Virus record (IMG/VR): IMGVR_UViG_3300009514_000098
Location: 1-21,056 of that record
Direction: 5' to 3' (one strand)
DNA: 21,056 nt
Source of the DNA: a virus
A program made the position numbers and the translations under genes. Below are positions 1,551 to 8,655 of this stretch, in pieces (position 1 is the stretch's first letter; each line of letters opens with the position of its first letter). The notes beneath the pieces are model-generated. The model had not been told where the DNA came from. It worked only from the letters and a program-made list of their open reading frames with translations, and did no database searches.

Positions 1551-2081
1551 TCACGCAGCTTGTAGTTTCAACGTCTGCTTACACACACGACACCTAAACT
1601 GTGCGACACGTGGCGCCGTCCGTGCAGTGAATGAATGGATACGCCCAGCACACCCGCACACCGCCGGGATTGCACCAAGCTTCACGGTGTCGTGCACGGT
1701 GTGCTTATCCGTGGGCAACTGCAGCACACCCATGATTTCCCGCCAGAGTGGCCCATGGTCGGTGTACTTCGCCGCCCGTGGATCGAGCTGCAACTCAACC
1801 GCGTGCGCCACTTCGTGCCCGATGGTCTGCATGGCCTTTTCTGGAAACTCACGGAGCCCCCGCAGGTTGAACGCAACGCGTGCGGACTTGGACACGTAGC
1901 GCAACTCCGTGACCCCGAACATCCGGGTGACTTTCCCTCCGCCAGTGCCCAGCAGTGACGGGTTGCGAATGCCGTACGTGATACGTGGTGTGTCCAGCGT
2001 GTGCCCGTAGTGCGCCCGGAGTATGCCCATAATCCCAGACACGCGGCTGGCTGTTAGGCGTTTAATCTGTGCGTCTGTCAT
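1551..2081 (-). CDS. SprT-like zinc metalloprotease
   Basis: 176 residues. HEVAH (residues 89-93) is the HExxH zinc-protease motif, and HGPLW with H109 about 16 residues later supplies the third ligand, as in SprT/Spartan proteins. A C-terminal ribbon with C142, C144, H149, C164 and C167 (ending FRCRVCKQTLKL) matches the SprT-like zinc ribbon. The family is known from Spartan, which cleaves proteins crosslinked to DNA, and from bacterial SprT, whose role is less clear. In an early phage operon the target could be a host DNA-bound protein or a defence factor; that is inference. The start is set by a TAATG overlap with the upstream 88-residue gene. The fold assignment is fairly safe; the substrate is unknown. 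Confidence 0.8.
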   Translation of the reverse strand: MTDAQIKRLTASRVSGIMGILRAHYGHTLDTPRITYGIRNPSLLGTGGGKVTRMFGVTELRYVSKSARVAFNLRGLREFPEKAMQTIGHEVAHAVELQLDPRAAKYTDHGPLWREIMGVLQLPTDKHTVHDTVKLGAIPAVCGCAGRIHSFTARTAPRVAQFRCRVCKQTLKLQAA

Positions 2082-3174: not shown

Positions 3175-3524
3175 GCTGTCACCTCCCACAACTGCGCCAC
3201 AAGGTGACAGAGCGGCGTGTAAGTGTTACGCCCTCCAGTGTAATCCTTCATATGCTGGGCGCTGCGCACTAACACATGATTGAGCCAATCACCCGGAAAG
3301 AAACGCACGTCGGAGAAGTTGATATATGCAAGCTTAAAGTTGTGCTGATTCTCAATAAATGCGCTGCAATAGAAGTGCCCGACCGACCATGTAACAAGCT
3401 TGAAGTCAGAACCTTTCAGGCTGTTTACAAGGTGACGCCGATAAGCGCTACTGAATGCCGCAAATTGTGGCGTGCGGCCGCTGGATGATTCAAATACTGT
3501 GCCTTGGAAGTCTGCAAGGTTCAT
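3171..3524 (-). CDS. First early-operon gene, 117-residue unknown protein
   Basis: A 117-residue protein beginning MNLADFQGTVFESSSGRTP. It is mixed alpha/beta in character with aromatic residues (SVGHFYCSAFIE, NFSDVRFFPGDWLN) and a KDYTGGRNTY segment near the C-terminus; I recognise no catalytic motif. A GAGGAG ribosome site lies about 7 bases before the ATG, and a sigma70-type promoter (3575-3604) lies just upstream. Its stop overlaps the start of the 250-residue gene (ATGA). As the first gene behind a host promoter it occupies the position of T7 gene 0.3, which encodes an anti-restriction protein; the sequence itself is unlike Ocr, so only the position is shared. Confidence 0.75.
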   Translation of the reverse strand: MNLADFQGTVFESSSGRTPQFAAFSSAYRRHLVNSLKGSDFKLVTWSVGHFYCSAFIENQHNFKLAYINFSDVRFFPGDWLNHVLVRSAQHMKDYTGGRNTYTPLCHLVAQLWEVTA

Positions 3525-3574
3525 CTGTTACTCTCCTCTGTGTTCCCGTTGCGTTATGCATTGGGCAGACCTCT

Positions 3575-3604
3575 TATATAGCACGATGCGGCAACCGCTG
3601 ACAA
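3575..3604 (-). promoter_or_regulatory. Sigma70-type early promoter
   Basis: On the minus strand TTGTCA (3599-3604) is followed after 18 bases by TATATA (3575-3580). Transcription would start near 3567, about 45 bases before the first early gene. T7-like phages use host RNA polymerase for the early genes from promoters in just this position. A 55-bp tandem repeat begins about 30 bases upstream of the -35 box. Confidence 0.6.
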
Positions 3605-3636
3605 GGTGTAGAGTAGCAGATGGTCAACTATCCGAC

Positions 3637-3746
3637 GAACGGCAGGGTGCGTGGTGTGTGCCCATGGTGTGCCTGGCGTGGTGCATGAGGTGAACGGTAG
3701 GGTGCGTGGTGTGTGCCCAGTGTGTGCCTGGCGTGGTGCATGAGGT
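3637..3746. repeat. Two tandem copies of a 55-bp repeat
   Basis: Copy 1 covers 3637-3691 and copy 2 covers 3692-3746, directly abutting. They differ at only a few positions (GGCAGGG against GGTAGGG, and CCCATGGTGT against CCCAGTGTGT). On the minus strand the unit is rich in CAC and CCAC steps. The unit length is not a multiple of three, which argues against coding. The position upstream of the early promoter suggests a protein-binding array (regulator, small terminase) or part of the terminal repeat. Confidence 0.9.
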
Positions 3747-3838
3747 GACAAGCTAAAATAGATTGATACACTCCCGGCCAGACGCGCACGCAACAAGGCG
3801 CGCCCTGTTCCACTCCATGCCTGCCCATCGCACACCGC

Positions 3839-3857
3839 AAGGGACTACTAGTCCCTT
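3839..3857. other. 19-bp perfect palindrome
   Basis: AAGGGACTA and TAGTCCCTT are perfect inverted arms around one central base. There is no T-run on the minus strand after it, so it is not a terminator for the phage transcripts; on the plus strand it is followed by CGTTTCTC. Possible roles are an operator or a terminase/nick recognition site in the junction region. Confidence 0.6.
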
Positions 3858-3891
3858 CGTTTCTCACTGCCAGCGCCACAAATTAATGGTT

Positions 3892-3913
3892 GCGTGCGGT
3901 CACAGCGTGCGGT
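3892..3913. repeat. 9-bp direct repeat in the junction region
   Basis: GCGTGCGGT occurs at 3892-3900 and again at 3905-3913, a 13-base period. The short period suggests a repeated protein-binding site. No known motif was recognised. Confidence 0.4.
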
Positions 3914-3990
3914 ATGTGGCAGAACGGACAAGAATGGTCGCCACCAGGCACCCTAGGGGGGAAAATCGCGCTCCCTCTAATCTCAAAGGC

Positions 3991-4022
3991 ACTGGAGAAA
4001 TTTACAATAAATTATTTCCAGT
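3991..4022. other. AT-rich imperfect inverted repeat
   Basis: ACTGGA pairs with TCCAGT and AATTTA pairs with TAAATT around a 3-base loop, with small unpaired bases between the two stem blocks. It is an AT-rich island inside a GC-richer junction. It could extrude as a hairpin, or simply be an easily melted promoter region, since a candidate -10 box overlaps it. Confidence 0.45.
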
Positions 4023-4038
4023 ATTGGCAACTCCTCAA
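4011..4038 (-). promoter_or_regulatory. Possible second sigma70-type promoter
   Basis: On the minus strand TTGAGG (4033-4038) is followed after 16 bases by AATAAT (4011-4016), five of six matches to the -10 consensus. It would transcribe leftward through the junction towards the early genes. Tandem host promoters before the early genes are usual in T7-like phages. The -35 match is modest and the AT-rich palindrome there could give the -10 box by chance. Confidence 0.3.
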
Positions 4039-4096
4039 GTCCACCCGGGGGCCAACCTCCTGTAATGCCCGTGGCGACGTTTGCCGGAGCGGAGGG

Positions 4097-4162
4097 CTAC
4101 GGTAGGGGCACCCTCCTCCGTACAGCTCCTCCTACCCCCATAGGCGGCCCGATTTGCCCCAT
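4097..4162 (-). CDS. Possible 21-residue micropeptide
   Basis: The frame begins MGQIGPPMGVGG and ends in VPLP. The only reason to note it is a perfect GGAGGAG ribosome site 8 bases before the ATG, directly downstream of the 33-residue membrane peptide gene. The same GGAGGAG string occurs twice more nearby without a following frame, so it may be a DNA repeat rather than a ribosome site. No family is recognisable at this length. Confidence 0.2.
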   Translation of the reverse strand: MGQIGPPMGVGGAVRRRVPLP

Positions 4163-4184
4163 CCTTAGGGCTCCTCCGGGTGGT

Positions 4185-4286
4185 TTACCACAGCACAGTG
4201 ACGAAATAGGTCACCACGATGACCAGAAACACTGTGATTCCCACGAATGTCTCGAGGTCACTGCGGTGGTGGATGTGCCGACGCAC
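4185..4286 (-). CDS. 33-residue single-pass membrane micropeptide
   Basis: The frame starts at a GTG that overlaps the stop of the coiled-coil gene (TAGTG) and has GGTGA 6 bases upstream. The product has a basic N-terminus (MRRHIHHRSDLE) and then one hydrophobic stretch, about residues 13-33, ending TYFVTVLW. The positive-inside rule predicts the N-terminus in the cytoplasm. It is the last gene of the late block, in the position where T7 has the tiny gene 19.5, but the sequence is unlike it. Together with the SPFH protein it makes the block look membrane-directed. The gene is supported by coupling and composition only. Confidence 0.55.
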   Translation of the reverse strand: MRRHIHHRSDLETFVGITVFLVIVVTYFVTVLW

Positions 4287-4615
4287 TACTTGTCACCACC
4301 GGTCAACAGGCGGAGGGCGTTGCGGCCCTTCTCGACGATGGACTTCGGGCGTTTCTTCTCGGCGGCTTCCATCTGGCGCTTGTTAGCGGCCATGTTCTCC
4401 AGTTCTTCGGCGGAGAGTTCATCGTTGGCCTGCTGCGCCAGGAGAGCCTTGCGGCGTTTCTTCTCAGCCTCGGCATCAGCCTTTCTCTTGGCATCGCTTT
4501 GGGCAGCGCTGGGGTTGGCATCACGCTCGCTCTTGAGGGTGTCTGCTGCTGACATTGGCTGTTGACCATTCTCGGCGGCGTCAATCTGTAATCGGGTAAG
4601 GTAGCCAGAGGCCAT
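4286..4615 (-). CDS. 109-residue charged coiled-coil protein
   Basis: The product begins MASGYLTRLQIDAAENGQQ. Residues about 40-90 are a long run of Lys, Glu, Ala, Arg and Asp (AKRKADAEAEKKRRKALLAQ), which should form a continuous helix or coiled coil; the C-terminus is basic. No membrane segment is present. It starts one base after the SPFH gene's stop and its own stop overlaps the start of the membrane micropeptide. SPFH proteins normally carry their own C-terminal coiled coil for oligomerisation; here the SPFH protein ends without one and this separate helix protein follows, so it may act as the missing partner. That link is inference; a virion or packaging role cannot be excluded. Confidence 0.75.
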   Translation of the reverse strand: MASGYLTRLQIDAAENGQQPMSAADTLKSERDANPSAAQSDAKRKADAEAEKKRRKALLAQQANDELSAEELENMAANKRQMEAAEKKRPKSIVEKGRNALRLLTGGDK

Positions 4616-4616
4616 G

Positions 4617-5156
4617 TTAGTTTCTCGGTTGTGGTGGTTGTGTGGGAAGCTCTCCGATCAGGCGGAATGAGCGAATCTCTCCAAGGTCGGTGAAGGTGAC
4701 CCGGTGTATCTTGAAGCCAAACTGGTTGACCTCCTTACGCACCAGCTCAAGTACCTGTAGCTCGACACTGGGTGAACTTAGGGTGCTGTACTGTAGGGTG
4801 CCGATGGTCTGCCGGATGGCACCCATGGTGACATCCTTGAGGACATCCACACTATCCCATATCTCCAGCAGGAAAGGTTTGACATCCTTGATCTGGTACT
4901 TCACCACAGCCGACACGACGATGGACTTATTGTCCAACGTGGTGAGGGTCTGTGGGCGTAACTCAAGGGTGGTAATTGCGGTGGTCGTAACCAGTGTCGT
5001 CTCGATCAGAGGCCACTTGAAGTGCAGGCCAGGATCGACGGAGCGACTGAACTTACCAAAGCGAAGTACGACACCACTCTCGTAAGCCAGAACAATGAAG
5101 GCGGGTTTTATGATCGACCAACCTTGGAGGATCACATCAATCAGCTTCTCAAACAT
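4617..5156 (-). CDS. SPFH/band-7 (stomatin/prohibitin-like) membrane-associated protein
   Basis: 179 residues. A hydrophobic N-terminal segment (about 8-24, with IIKPAFIVLAY) precedes YESGVVLRFGKF (25-36) and VDPGLHFKWPLIET (40-53), the hallmark start of SPFH domains. LDNKSIVVSAVVKYQIKD (74-91), an IRQTIG helix (114-119) and GFKIHRVTFTDL (147-158) follow the domain to its end. SPFH proteins such as stomatin, flotillin and HflK/HflC form membrane-bound rings and control partner proteases or lipid domains. The chain stops soon after the domain, lacking the usual coiled-coil tail. The SD is weak. A palindrome-rich 185-bp region with a T7-type promoter candidate lies upstream. SPFH genes are not part of the standard T7 gene set; a role in exclusion, membrane remodelling or countering HflKC is a guess. 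Confidence 0.8.
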   Translation of the reverse strand: MFEKLIDVILQGWSIIKPAFIVLAYESGVVLRFGKFSRSVDPGLHFKWPLIETTLVTTTAITTLELRPQTLTTLDNKSIVVSAVVKYQIKDVKPFLLEIWDSVDVLKDVTMGAIRQTIGTLQYSTLSSPSVELQVLELVRKEVNQFGFKIHRVTFTDLGEIRSFRLIGELPTQPPQPRN

Positions 5157-5341: not shown

Positions 5342-5605
5342 TTACCAGACGTACACCCAATCGTTGGACAGGAGGTCAGACTGAGAGGGAGTCCACACCA
5401 TGATGGAACCGTCCGCGGTACGCATATCAATGTGGGCGTGGTAGGTGATCTGCGTGTCAACTGGGAAGATACCCATGAGGGGCTCACGGTTGACCTTGAA
5501 GGTTGAGCCAGGCACGAGGAATACGAACATGCCTTGACCGTTCCAACCACTGCGACCGAGCTTGCGGCCAGACTGAATGCCCAGCAGGGCGTCACTGAAA
5601 TTCAT
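5342..5605 (-). CDS. tad2: DUF2829 / Tad2-like anti-Thoeris protein
   Basis: 87 residues from the ATG at 5605, which has GAGGAG 4-5 bases upstream; a frame extension to 5617 would overlap the terminase stop and lacks a site. MNFSDALLGIQSGRKLGRSG (1-20) followed by WNGQGMFVFLVPG (21-33), then HIDMRTADGSIMVWTPSQSD (58-77) and a final DWVYVW, match the DUF2829 pattern as I know it. DUF2829 includes Tad2, a small oligomeric protein shown to sequester the cyclic ADP-ribose-type signal of Thoeris defence. Length fits Tad2 (about 90 residues). It sits 8 bases after the terminase gene. The family call is strong; anti-Thoeris activity is inferred, as not all DUF2829 proteins have been tested. Confidence 0.8.
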   Translation of the reverse strand: MNFSDALLGIQSGRKLGRSGWNGQGMFVFLVPGSTFKVNREPLMGIFPVDTQITYHAHIDMRTADGSIMVWTPSQSDLLSNDWVYVW

Positions 5606-5613
5606 ACTTCTCC

Positions 5614-7290
5614 TCACTTAATGTTGAACCAGCGGTGATCCTCAGGGGTTCCTGTGGGGCCACTGTGGACGTTGTTGATGAATTGATTAAGTGCACGATC
5701 CAGTGCTTCGGCACGGGAGTCATTGACTGCCTTGACGGTATCGCGGGCCATGAACTCAACCCAATACTTCACGGCGCCGGAGACCGCCTCCAACCTGTCG
5801 TCATGCCGGAGGGCACCACGATCAGAGGTGATGCGGGTCATCTGCATCAGGAACTGGTTGTCGGTCTGGTCGACGTGGAAGTCGGTCTTGATGATCTCCT
5901 CGTCGATGACCAGGCGGTGCTGGTTAAGGATTGGCTCAAGTACGTCGATAATGCGGCGTTCTTTCTGCCCTACGCTGTGATCTTCTTCAATCGTGCAGGC
6001 ATAGACCCGGTTGATGACGGGCTTGAGGAGGCTCGTGAACATGCCATCACCGAAGTTACTTTCGACGATGATGAGGTTCACCTTCTGTGTTTTCGCTACA
6101 TTTGCCAGCACGGCGAGGGTCTCGGGCTCATAGCCGCCCTTGAGTCCACCAACGGCTGTCAGGTAGAGCATGCCATTGAGAATCTTGACCACGGCATAGC
6201 CGGTCTCGTCCTTGCCTCGACCGCTTGGATCGACGTACATGACGGAGCCGGTATAGGGCGCCCAGTCCTTGGATACGTGGATGGGTCGATGCCAGCGGTC
6301 ACCCGCCAGGCCAACCACTGGGAGGTGGCTGATGACCTGATCCGGGCCACTGCCCCACACCAGCTGTACCGGTGCGACATCTGCGTTGCAGGACAACACG
6401 AGGAAGTCCGACAGACGCAGCGGGTAGCGCTCTTGGTCACTTAAGGTGGTGTCGAGCATGAACTGCAGGGCGAAGCCGGAGCGTGCGAACTTGGCCTCAC
6501 GGGCCAGCAGCTCCTCTTCGTTGAAGCGCTGAGGATCGACCGGATCACCGGGTTTACCGCCATCCTCGATCAGCTGCAGGATGTACGGCGCTAGGTTGCC
6601 GGCGTAACTCTCCATCTTCTGGAGGGTAGGAATACGGGCCGGCCAAATGCGAAGCGTATAGCCACGCTGGTTCGCCAAGGCGGTGTACACGGAGAACTCG
6701 GATTGTGGTGTCCCGAGGAACAGGATGCGGGCATCAGGTAGTGGCTTGATGACGGCACTGAACTCTTCCACCAGAGTCATCAGGCGGTCGCGCATGAGCT
6801 GCGTTTGGGAGTTCTTAGGAATCTCAATGTCGTCCGCGATGATCTCGTCGGCGCGTGAGCCGGTGATCTGGCCGGTGATGCCCACGGACTTCATGGAGGG
6901 TGACTGGTCGGCGGTGGCGGGGCCAACGTCAAAGGTCACCGTTGAGTCGCGCTGCCCATCGCCAGGCTTGAGGAAGTGGAGCTGGGGAATCTCGCTGATG
7001 AGGCGCCGGCTAAAGATGGAGAATGCGTCGGCGCGATCCTTACTCGCGGACACCACCAGAAACTTGAGCTGGGGGTTCCAGTACAGACGCCACAGCACGT
7101 ACGCGGCAGTCAGGAATGACTTGCCGATACCACGGAAGGCTTCAATGATGAAGGATCGTGGGCCGTGCTGCAGGTTGTAGGCGATGTCGTACTGCGCGGG
7201 TGTCGGAGCGGGTAGCCCAAGGTGTTGCCATACGAGAAACACAAAGTTTCTAAAATCGCGCAGGCGATCATCGCGATTAAATTCGTCCAC
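5614..7290 (-). CDS. Terminase large subunit (T7 gp19 type)
   Basis: 558 residues from the GTG at 7290, close to T7 gp19 (586). The motor that cuts concatemers and pumps DNA into the prohead. Walker A is EAFRGIGKSF (GIGKS about 54-58), Walker B is EIIADDIEIP (acidic pair about 153-154), and GITGQITGSRAD lies between, as in gp19. The nuclease acidic residues are in YVDPSGRGKDETGYA (D354), VESNFGDGMF (about 410) and LRHDDRLEA (about 497). The frame is open to 7404, but that start would overlap the HNH gene by 128 bases; the GTG at 7290 has GGAGG at a 6-base spacing and overlaps by 14. An ATG at 7317 is the alternative. The product is complete, with no frameshift. Confidence 0.95.
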   Translation of the reverse strand: MDEFNRDDRLRDFRNFVFLVWQHLGLPAPTPAQYDIAYNLQHGPRSFIIEAFRGIGKSFLTAAYVLWRLYWNPQLKFLVVSASKDRADAFSIFSRRLISEIPQLHFLKPGDGQRDSTVTFDVGPATADQSPSMKSVGITGQITGSRADEIIADDIEIPKNSQTQLMRDRLMTLVEEFSAVIKPLPDARILFLGTPQSEFSVYTALANQRGYTLRIWPARIPTLQKMESYAGNLAPYILQLIEDGGKPGDPVDPQRFNEEELLAREAKFARSGFALQFMLDTTLSDQERYPLRLSDFLVLSCNADVAPVQLVWGSGPDQVISHLPVVGLAGDRWHRPIHVSKDWAPYTGSVMYVDPSGRGKDETGYAVVKILNGMLYLTAVGGLKGGYEPETLAVLANVAKTQKVNLIIVESNFGDGMFTSLLKPVINRVYACTIEEDHSVGQKERRIIDVLEPILNQHRLVIDEEIIKTDFHVDQTDNQFLMQMTRITSDRGALRHDDRLEAVSGAVKYWVEFMARDTVKAVNDSRAEALDRALNQFINNVHSGPTGTPEDHRWFNIK

Positions 7291-7708
7291 AGAGTGCCTC
7301 CGCCATGCGCCGAACATCAGCTTCGGTGGAAGTTCCTTTGGCACAGTTGTACATCCAACAGACAACCTGGCAGTTGTCCTCGGTGTACCCACGAGTGTTG
7401 TCAATGCGATCTAAGGAGGGTGCCCACGCGCGAACGTCGTAGCTGAATGAAATACCCGTCGCAGCGCAGTGACCGCCGGTCACGCGTTGAATCACCCACT
7501 CCTCCGTTATGGAAAAGTCCAACCCCTTCTGCTTTGCACGCGCCCGCGCGTTGCGAAATAGGTGGGTGGCACGCCCTGCGGTTGTGTTGTAGCGCGCTTG
7601 AAACTTCTCCGGGCTATAAGTCAGGCGGCGCTTTGCGTTAATGGTGGTGCGGTTAGAACGGTAATGTGAGGCCGCGCGAATGCGCGCTTCCTCAGCTGTC
7701 TCTGTCAC
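7277..7708 (-). CDS. Free-standing HNH endonuclease
   Basis: 143 residues from a GTG with GAGGT 5 bases upstream. The HNH core is near the C-terminus: GHCAATGIPF-like GHCAATGISF (79-88), then SLDRIDNTRGYTEDNCQVVC (98-117) and the N..K pair in MYNCAKG. The first histidine position of the classic motif reads as part of SLDRID, as in many phage HNH proteins. The N-terminus is basic and probably contacts DNA. It sits between the small and large terminase genes and overlaps the latter by 14 bases. It may be a homing endonuclease that spreads at the terminase locus, or aid packaging as HNH proteins do in some other phages; homing is the simpler reading. Confidence 0.88.
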   Translation of the reverse strand: MTETAEEARIRAASHYRSNRTTINAKRRLTYSPEKFQARYNTTAGRATHLFRNARARAKQKGLDFSITEEWVIQRVTGGHCAATGISFSYDVRAWAPSLDRIDNTRGYTEDNCQVVCWMYNCAKGTSTEADVRRMAEALCGRI

Positions 7709-8135: not shown

Positions 8136-8378
8136 TTACTTCTTGCCCTGGATAGAGACGACTTTTCCCTCGTCAAATGGGAATGCCTCCTTGAGTACAG
8201 CTAAAGGTGTACCTGGGGCACTGCGTGCTTGAATACCATTGTCTTTCAGGAACTGCCGAGCGACGTTAAGCACTGATGCATTCAAGCCGCCATTCTCATC
8301 CTTCTGAGTGATGGCTGATGCTAAGGTTGTTGCAAGGGAGGCGTGCAGCTTTTCGAGGTCGTCCTTATCAGCTGCCAC
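8136..8378 (-). CDS. Small terminase subunit (T7 gp18 type)
   Basis: 80 residues from a GTG at 8378 that has TGGAGG 5 bases upstream; the frame is open to 8420 but the longer form has no ribosome site. The start overlaps the holin gene's end by 11 bases. The product (AADKDDLEKLHASLATTLAS near the start, then LNVARQFLKDNGI) is short, helical and charged like T7 gp18 (89 residues), and lies between the holin and large terminase genes, the T7 arrangement. It should recognise concatemer DNA and load the large subunit. Sequence similarity of these proteins is low, so position carries much of the weight. Confidence 0.8.
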   Translation of the reverse strand: MAADKDDLEKLHASLATTLASAITQKDENGGLNASVLNVARQFLKDNGIQARSAPGTPLAVLKEAFPFDEGKVVSIQGKK

Positions 8379-8655
8379 TGGAACCTCCAAAGTATTTCTG
8401 GAAGATGATCTCAAGGGCACTGGTGCCCAACGATGCGAGGCCGGCAGCGAGACCCAGCTGGGCCACGAGCGGAATCTCGGGAATGAGGATCACGACTGCC
8501 GCAGCGGATGCGCCCAGTCCACAACTGGACAGGAAGCGACCGATCACGATTCGTGGAGTCAGTTCCTCTTTACTGGCGAGTAGTTGACCAAAGCCAACTA
8601 GGCCGCCCACCGCACCGAGTGTTGCGAGCGTGGTGAGCGCGTCTTTGTCAATCAT
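8368..8655 (-). CDS. Holin (T7 17.5 position)
   Basis: 95 residues with three hydrophobic stretches, about 8-27, 41-58 and 61-84, separated by charged turns (ASKEELTPR and IPEIP), and a short hydrophilic tail ending GGSSGS. It follows the tail fibre gene and precedes the small terminase gene, exactly where T7 carries holin gene 17.5. It would open the inner membrane at the end of infection so that the endolysin (not in this window) can act. No ribosome site is visible before the ATG, which is unusual next to its neighbours, and a perfect 19-bp palindrome with a TTGACA lies 24 bases upstream, so its expression may be specially controlled. Confidence 0.8.
   Translation of the reverse strand: MIDKDALTTLATLGAVGGLVGFGQLLASKEELTPRIVIGRFLSSCGLGASAAAVVILIPEIPLVAQLGLAAGLASLGTSALEIIFQKYFGGSSGS

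Follow-up and report, generated by a model that had tools for sequence, protein, structure and literature searches.

Coil-less SPFH proteins of phages form a separate clade with lysis or head genes as frequent neighbours

The window analyzed here, that is, the whole of a 21-kb virus fragment, encodes on its minus strand a protein of 179 residues with an ATG start (P0001, positions 4617-5156) that is a true member of the SPFH/Band 7 superfamily and belongs to a monophyletic, phage-only clade of short SPFH proteins lacking the C-terminal coiled coil, here called mini-SPFH. Genes for lysis or for the head are frequent neighbours of these proteins, which suggests that the host membrane is organized late in infection by the phage mini-SPFH. 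Our preferred reading, to which we give a probability of about 0.42, is that a coil-less SPFH assembly sits monotopically on the inner membrane and organizes late events, most likely the holin/lysis step. Mentions of SPFH genes in phages go back at least to 2006, with proposed functions only; a widespread viral clade that keeps the SPFH domain only is a natural minimal version with which the domain can be probed alone.

A reading made earlier from the letters of this DNA (the sequence-only reading) had described the protein as a bona fide SPFH protein. This is borne out by the Pfam Band_7 profile (PF01145), which matches the protein with E = 1e-21 and 78.2 bits (cut-off 23.6), and by profile matches to the stomatin, QmcA, HflK and HflC sequences in PDB. 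The AlphaFold (AF2) model has a pLDDT of 87 and is related by Foldseek to HflC, HflK, stomatin, QmcA and prohibitin with E of 7e-14 to 1e-10; against the stomatin SPFH domain it gives a Z of 16.7 and an rmsd of 1.9 over 110 residues. The protein is composed of an N-terminal amphipathic helix (residues 2-16), the SPFH domain up to about residue 160 and a short disordered tail. A C-terminal coiled coil is missing, with the fold over by about residue 160 and the chain ending at 179, in agreement with the earlier claim that the chain stops at the end of the domain. Without the coiled coil the protein cannot be filed as canonical stomatin/HflK-type, although its place among SPFH-domain proteins is unaffected.

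The first 17 residues (MF[DE][KR]LID...) form an amphipathic helix that is conserved in mini-SPFH. It is found in all 28 members tested (Eisenberg moment 0.48-0.70, shuffle p <=0.04), and in the model of the window protein helix 2-16 runs directly into the beta domain. The best 19-residue hydropathy of the members is below 1.9 throughout and below 1.6 in most, the value for the window member (KD = 1.70) being borderline for an N-terminal transmembrane helix. The sequence-only reading had noted a hydrophobic N-terminus; by hydropathy and moment, this helix is amphipathic rather than clearly transmembrane. We infer that the anchor is monotopic and faces the cytoplasm.

A single-sequence search gave three relatives, and the alignment of these three retrieved 112 stretches, of which 80 were kept; later searches added more, and the clade comprises more than 100 IMG/VR contigs. 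All 78 complete chains among the first 80 loci are 175-183 residues long and end just after the last SPFH strand; further members have 166-186 residues and one distant protein 194. The cellular relatives (57 of 57, some of them followed past the domain only until the contig end) continue well past the SPFH domain, by about 100-235 residues. In three maximum-likelihood trees the mini forms lie on one side of a single branch (support 99/97, 100/100 and 100/100) that parts them from HflK, HflC, QmcA and the full-length (N4-gp20-like) phage SPFH proteins. The window protein does not group with HflK/HflC/QmcA; it falls in the separate clade (100/100) and has the amphipathic N-helix, the SPFH fold and the lack of a tail that define it. 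Because the tail is missing across the whole phage clade and present in cellular relatives, lack of the coil is old and general in the clade and did not arise by a recent split in the window phage, and the proposal that the coiled coil had become a separate gene here is not supported.

A tblastn search of 50,697 phage records with P0001 returned nothing beyond HflK genes of Salmonella (two) and a short record lacking annotation, and because of so small a yield cultured T7-like phages seem to be without a mini-SPFH gene. On genome contigs, searched with two sequence patterns, the proteins checked were all full-length cellular forms among the matches listed, which does not prove absence from prophages. 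In addition to the mini-SPFH, the records of two members (L227, G030:33671-34252; L214, G027:6140-6730) encode another Band_7 protein, of greater length.

The window phage is judged T7-like from its genes, because its terminase large subunit (TerL; 5614-7404, minus strand; Pfam PF22530 E = 4.5e-40, PHROG 38 E = 6e-112), which lies upstream of the mini-SPFH gene, has the T7 RNaseH-like domain and a T7-type TerS and a holin are also found upstream; the earlier placement in a T7-like late block agrees with this. The holin (Phage_holin_3_2; 8368-8655, minus strand; Pfam PF04550 E = 2.4e-12; PHROG 175, lysis) is the phage's recognizable lysis gene and lies 3.2 kb upstream of mini-SPFH, and a search of the whole window gave no match to Phage_lysozyme, Amidase_2, M15, GH108, CHAP or SLT. 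Between TerL and mini-SPFH is a Tad2-like gene (Thoeris anti-defence 2 domain; 5342-5617, minus strand; Pfam PF11195 E = 2e-21), coming directly after TerL in a T7-like phage. Simple scans of the window for promoters and terminators were no better than chance. An Endonuclease VII/HNH-like gene (7277-7708, minus strand) lies between TerS and TerL and overlaps with its 3' end the start of the listed TerL ORF; TerL probably starts further in. The stretch 3524-4185, between the end of the late genes and the next gene set, is gene-poor and includes two copies of a 55-bp direct repeat (3637-3748, 94% matches), and may be the genome-end (terminal repeat) region. Beyond the late block, a zinc-site protein (1551-2081, minus strand) resembles SprT by eye (HEVAH motif).

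The three minus-strand frames of the sequence-only reading were found exactly at its coordinates and with its spacing: the ATG of a 109-residue protein (4286-4615) comes one base past the SPFH stop, and the GTG start of a 33-residue single-pass membrane micropeptide (4185-4286) shares one base with the preceding TAG. Codon usage in the three frames matches that of the phage's own genes, unlike that of other frames. The middle protein is Ala-rich, very charged (21 K+R, 18 D+E) and helical. It had been described as a coiled-coil protein, of which the helical character and, by codon usage, the coding status hold up; the coiled coil is doubtful, as no more than 5 of 10 large hydrophobics fall on a/d positions and a classic heptad pattern is weak. 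Searches of IMG/VR and of the 50,697 phage records detected no relative of it, and neither it nor the micropeptide has a Pfam match; two weak PHROG matches of the 109-residue protein (phrog_32389, E = 0.006; phrog_2976, E = 0.04) were judged to be low-complexity. That the micropeptide is a gene is plausible; its codon score is above 97% of open wrong-frame stretches, and it is the sole strong hydrophobic (transmembrane) segment among the 192 small ORFs of the window.

The trio was absent from every mini-SPFH locus read elsewhere, where the next gene encodes a scaffold-position protein, a trypsin, a lysozyme, an amidase, a 3D-domain protein or others. In this linkage survey the nearest T7-like relatives, L005 and L007, end inside the SPFH gene and so give no downstream view, and in MW202733, the single probable T7-like relative whose sequence continues downstream, another protein follows. 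Conserved linkage of the three genes in related phages, on which the idea of one system had been staked, was thus seen nowhere. Both small genes look real; a three-part system is not supported, though for this one phage it keeps a small probability.

Lysis genes near mini-SPFH were found at a series of other loci: Trypsin_2 and Phage_lysozyme at L006 and L193 (the latter grouped with L245), Trypsin_2, M15 peptidase and GTA_holin_3TM at L074, GTA_holin_3TM at L172 and L182, GH108 at L196, and TerL followed by Amidase_2 at L215, with L195 and L237-L240 as weaker cases. The proximity was tested in 27 records, namely the window and 26 relatives not of the crAss type, whose contigs were searched in full for Phage_lysozyme, GTA_holin_3TM, Amidase_2, Trypsin_2, M15_3, GH108, CHAP and SLT. 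Nine of the 12 contigs with a lysis-type match have one within 1.2 kb of mini-SPFH, with 2.4 expected at random (P = 2.5e-6, unchanged without trypsin), a P that is optimistic given that most families were picked after being seen nearby, that many contigs are fragments and that several may be related phages and not fully independent. For contigs of at least 11 kb the count is 6 of 9 (P = 8.5e-5). CHAP and SLT, the families picked without prior sighting, gave no match in the 27 whole contigs, and a 3D-domain protein beside L237, L238 and L240, just under its cut-off, was kept out of the statistic. In the tree, P0001 and L002 are nested in a branch of 10 of which the other eight carry the lysis label (support 86/91), the labels of L195 and L196 resting on genes a few hundred to about 1,500 bases away.

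Trypsin_2 proteins with apparent signal peptides lie beside endolysin and mini-SPFH genes at L006:8543-9130, L074:5680-6396 and L193:57-677, and are possible envelope-attacking partners in mini-SPFH lysis modules. A DUF5675 protein, seen by the GTA-type holin at L182:6571-7416 (minus strand) and near mini-SPFH at L195:4490-4882, is possibly an unrecognized lysis enzyme. Another branch of the clade (L068, L071, L171), and other members besides, have tRNA arrays or small unknown genes around them, with no lysis gene near that branch; by eye, L068, L071, L081 and L171 are located beside or inside apparent tRNA arrays, with neither lysis nor head genes in the vicinity.

In the mechanism that we favour, mini-SPFH would be made together with the late genes, and its SPFH domain would be held to the inner membrane by the N-terminal amphipathic helix. 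The domains would oligomerize on the cytoplasmic side of that membrane as a flat ring or scaffold, lacking the coiled-coil dome of cellular SPFH cages. Such a scaffold could gather or restrain phage membrane partners, in the window branch most likely the holin, and could thereby set the site and time of membrane opening; it would perhaps also aid the export of envelope-attacking enzymes. A part in lysis was already one of the roles guessed by the sequence-only reading. In crAss-like phages this scaffold may have come to serve the portal, and the genes for the 109-residue protein and the micropeptide would be separate accessory genes. Against a lysis role, the mini-SPFH gene of the window adjoins Tad2 and TerL with the holin 3.2 kb off, and the largest mini-SPFH subgroup is tied to the portal.

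This subgroup is formed by environmental crAss-like phages with the gene order TerL, portal, mini-SPFH, scaffold-position protein and MCP (TerL, portal and MCP identified from PHROGs), whose TerL and portal have relatives in Crassvirales and Cellulophaga phages, among others. Portal and scaffold-position neighbours are present at 67 of the first 80 loci, and the portal stop and the mini-SPFH start share one base at 61 of the 80, a feature that extends to the diverged L028. This overlap is the strongest evidence for the main rival to the lysis reading, according to which a membrane SPFH ring receives the portal/packaging machinery and starts or supports procapsid assembly. In T4, head assembly is thought to begin at the membrane, with gp20 and gp40. 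T7-like mini-SPFH genes also follow TerL: in L005, in the window, where Tad2 intervenes, and probably in MW202733 (L167). The TerL of MW202733 is 49% identical to that of the window, and what follows it has the same architecture, but the very long tree branch of this record makes it no more than a probable member. We nevertheless hold the head-assembly platform to be doubtful: the portal cases all belong to a single order-level group and count as one or two events, two related phages, phi17:2 and Lbo-JY46, share the gene order but have no mini-SPFH at that place, and in the window branch mini-SPFH tracks lysis genes instead. Also rather doubtful is a generic inner-leaflet dock, in which a coil-less SPFH ring would hold holins in one branch and portals in crAss-like phages; if true, it would set the site and time of lysis and would bring the assembly of heads to the membrane.

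Interference with host SPFH-FtsH complexes, with the coil-less domain joining or capping HflK/HflC or QmcA and altering FtsH proteolysis, appears unlikely. The SPFH domains of HflKC are periplasmic, whereas the amphipathic anchor would probably leave that of mini-SPFH in the cytoplasm; the clade stands apart from HflK and HflC, and a CII-type switch is not expected in the T7-like window phage. These points weigh against 31-34% identity to E. coli HflC/HflK over 100-137 residues and a phage literature in which FtsH and lysogeny are mostly proposed to be under HflKC-like control (PMC8540360, PMC10269572, PMC4936722). We think it quite improbable that the gene serves superinfection exclusion or anti-defence as part of an accessory block at the genome end: it does adjoin the Tad2-like anti-Thoeris gene where the late operon ends, a common location of accessory genes, but the relatives whose neighbours were read have no Tad2 and sit in head or lysis modules. 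Very improbable is a split scaffold uniting the SPFH protein, a separate helix and the micropeptide in one complex, for which the tight spacing and the coding signals in all three frames could be adduced; a middle protein without relatives found and with a weak coiled-coil pattern, a linkage seen at no other locus read and an SPFH truncation spanning the whole clade all count against it.

Phage SPFH genes are already known, and lysogeny, FtsH or adsorption are the usual guesses for them (PMC1524935, PMC8540360, PMC13239085, PMC10269572, PMC4936722). In the open literature we found no description of a coil-less SPFH clade, of its lysis-module ties or of its crAss-like portal tie, and no paper pairing crAss-like phages with SPFH. 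The recurrence in lysis modules and the portal-gene overlap provide concrete candidate partners, and mini-SPFH bears on how holins and the early steps of head assembly are organized at the bacterial membrane.

Cellular SPFH proteins are known as large cages whose walls are formed by coiled coils, those of the HflK/HflC/QmcA type being membrane cages of 20-30 subunits. PDB entries of stomatin with aquaporin 1 and of HflKC with FtsH present them as holding other membrane proteins. Mini-SPFH shares with stomatin, QmcA and HflK-HflC the same fold over about 140 residues but has neither the coiled coil nor the C-terminal cage part, and its N-helix, amphipathic in the family and of borderline hydropathy in the window member, stands where they have a transmembrane helix or hairpin. 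The N4 gp20-like SPFH proteins of Rhizobium phage Pasto (itself T7-like), Skarpretter and Kc166B are likewise from tailed phages, but they have 281-285 residues and form a distinct clade; that of Pasto is annotated with one N-terminal transmembrane helix and its gene belongs to the early region, immediately upstream of that for RNA polymerase. Closer is A0A6J7WFI0 (BFVD) from an uncultured Caudovirales phage, called HflK by name alone, which has 173 residues, the same short architecture and a TM-score of 0.83 to the window model. In Kayvirus, the gene of the SPFH protein MbpS is flanked by lysK (endolysin) and tgl (transglycosylase) in a lysis module (PMC7150955). MbpS is longer, stomatin-like (matched over residues 57-244) and from phages of Gram-positive hosts, and it is an independent published precedent for an SPFH protein in a phage lysis module.
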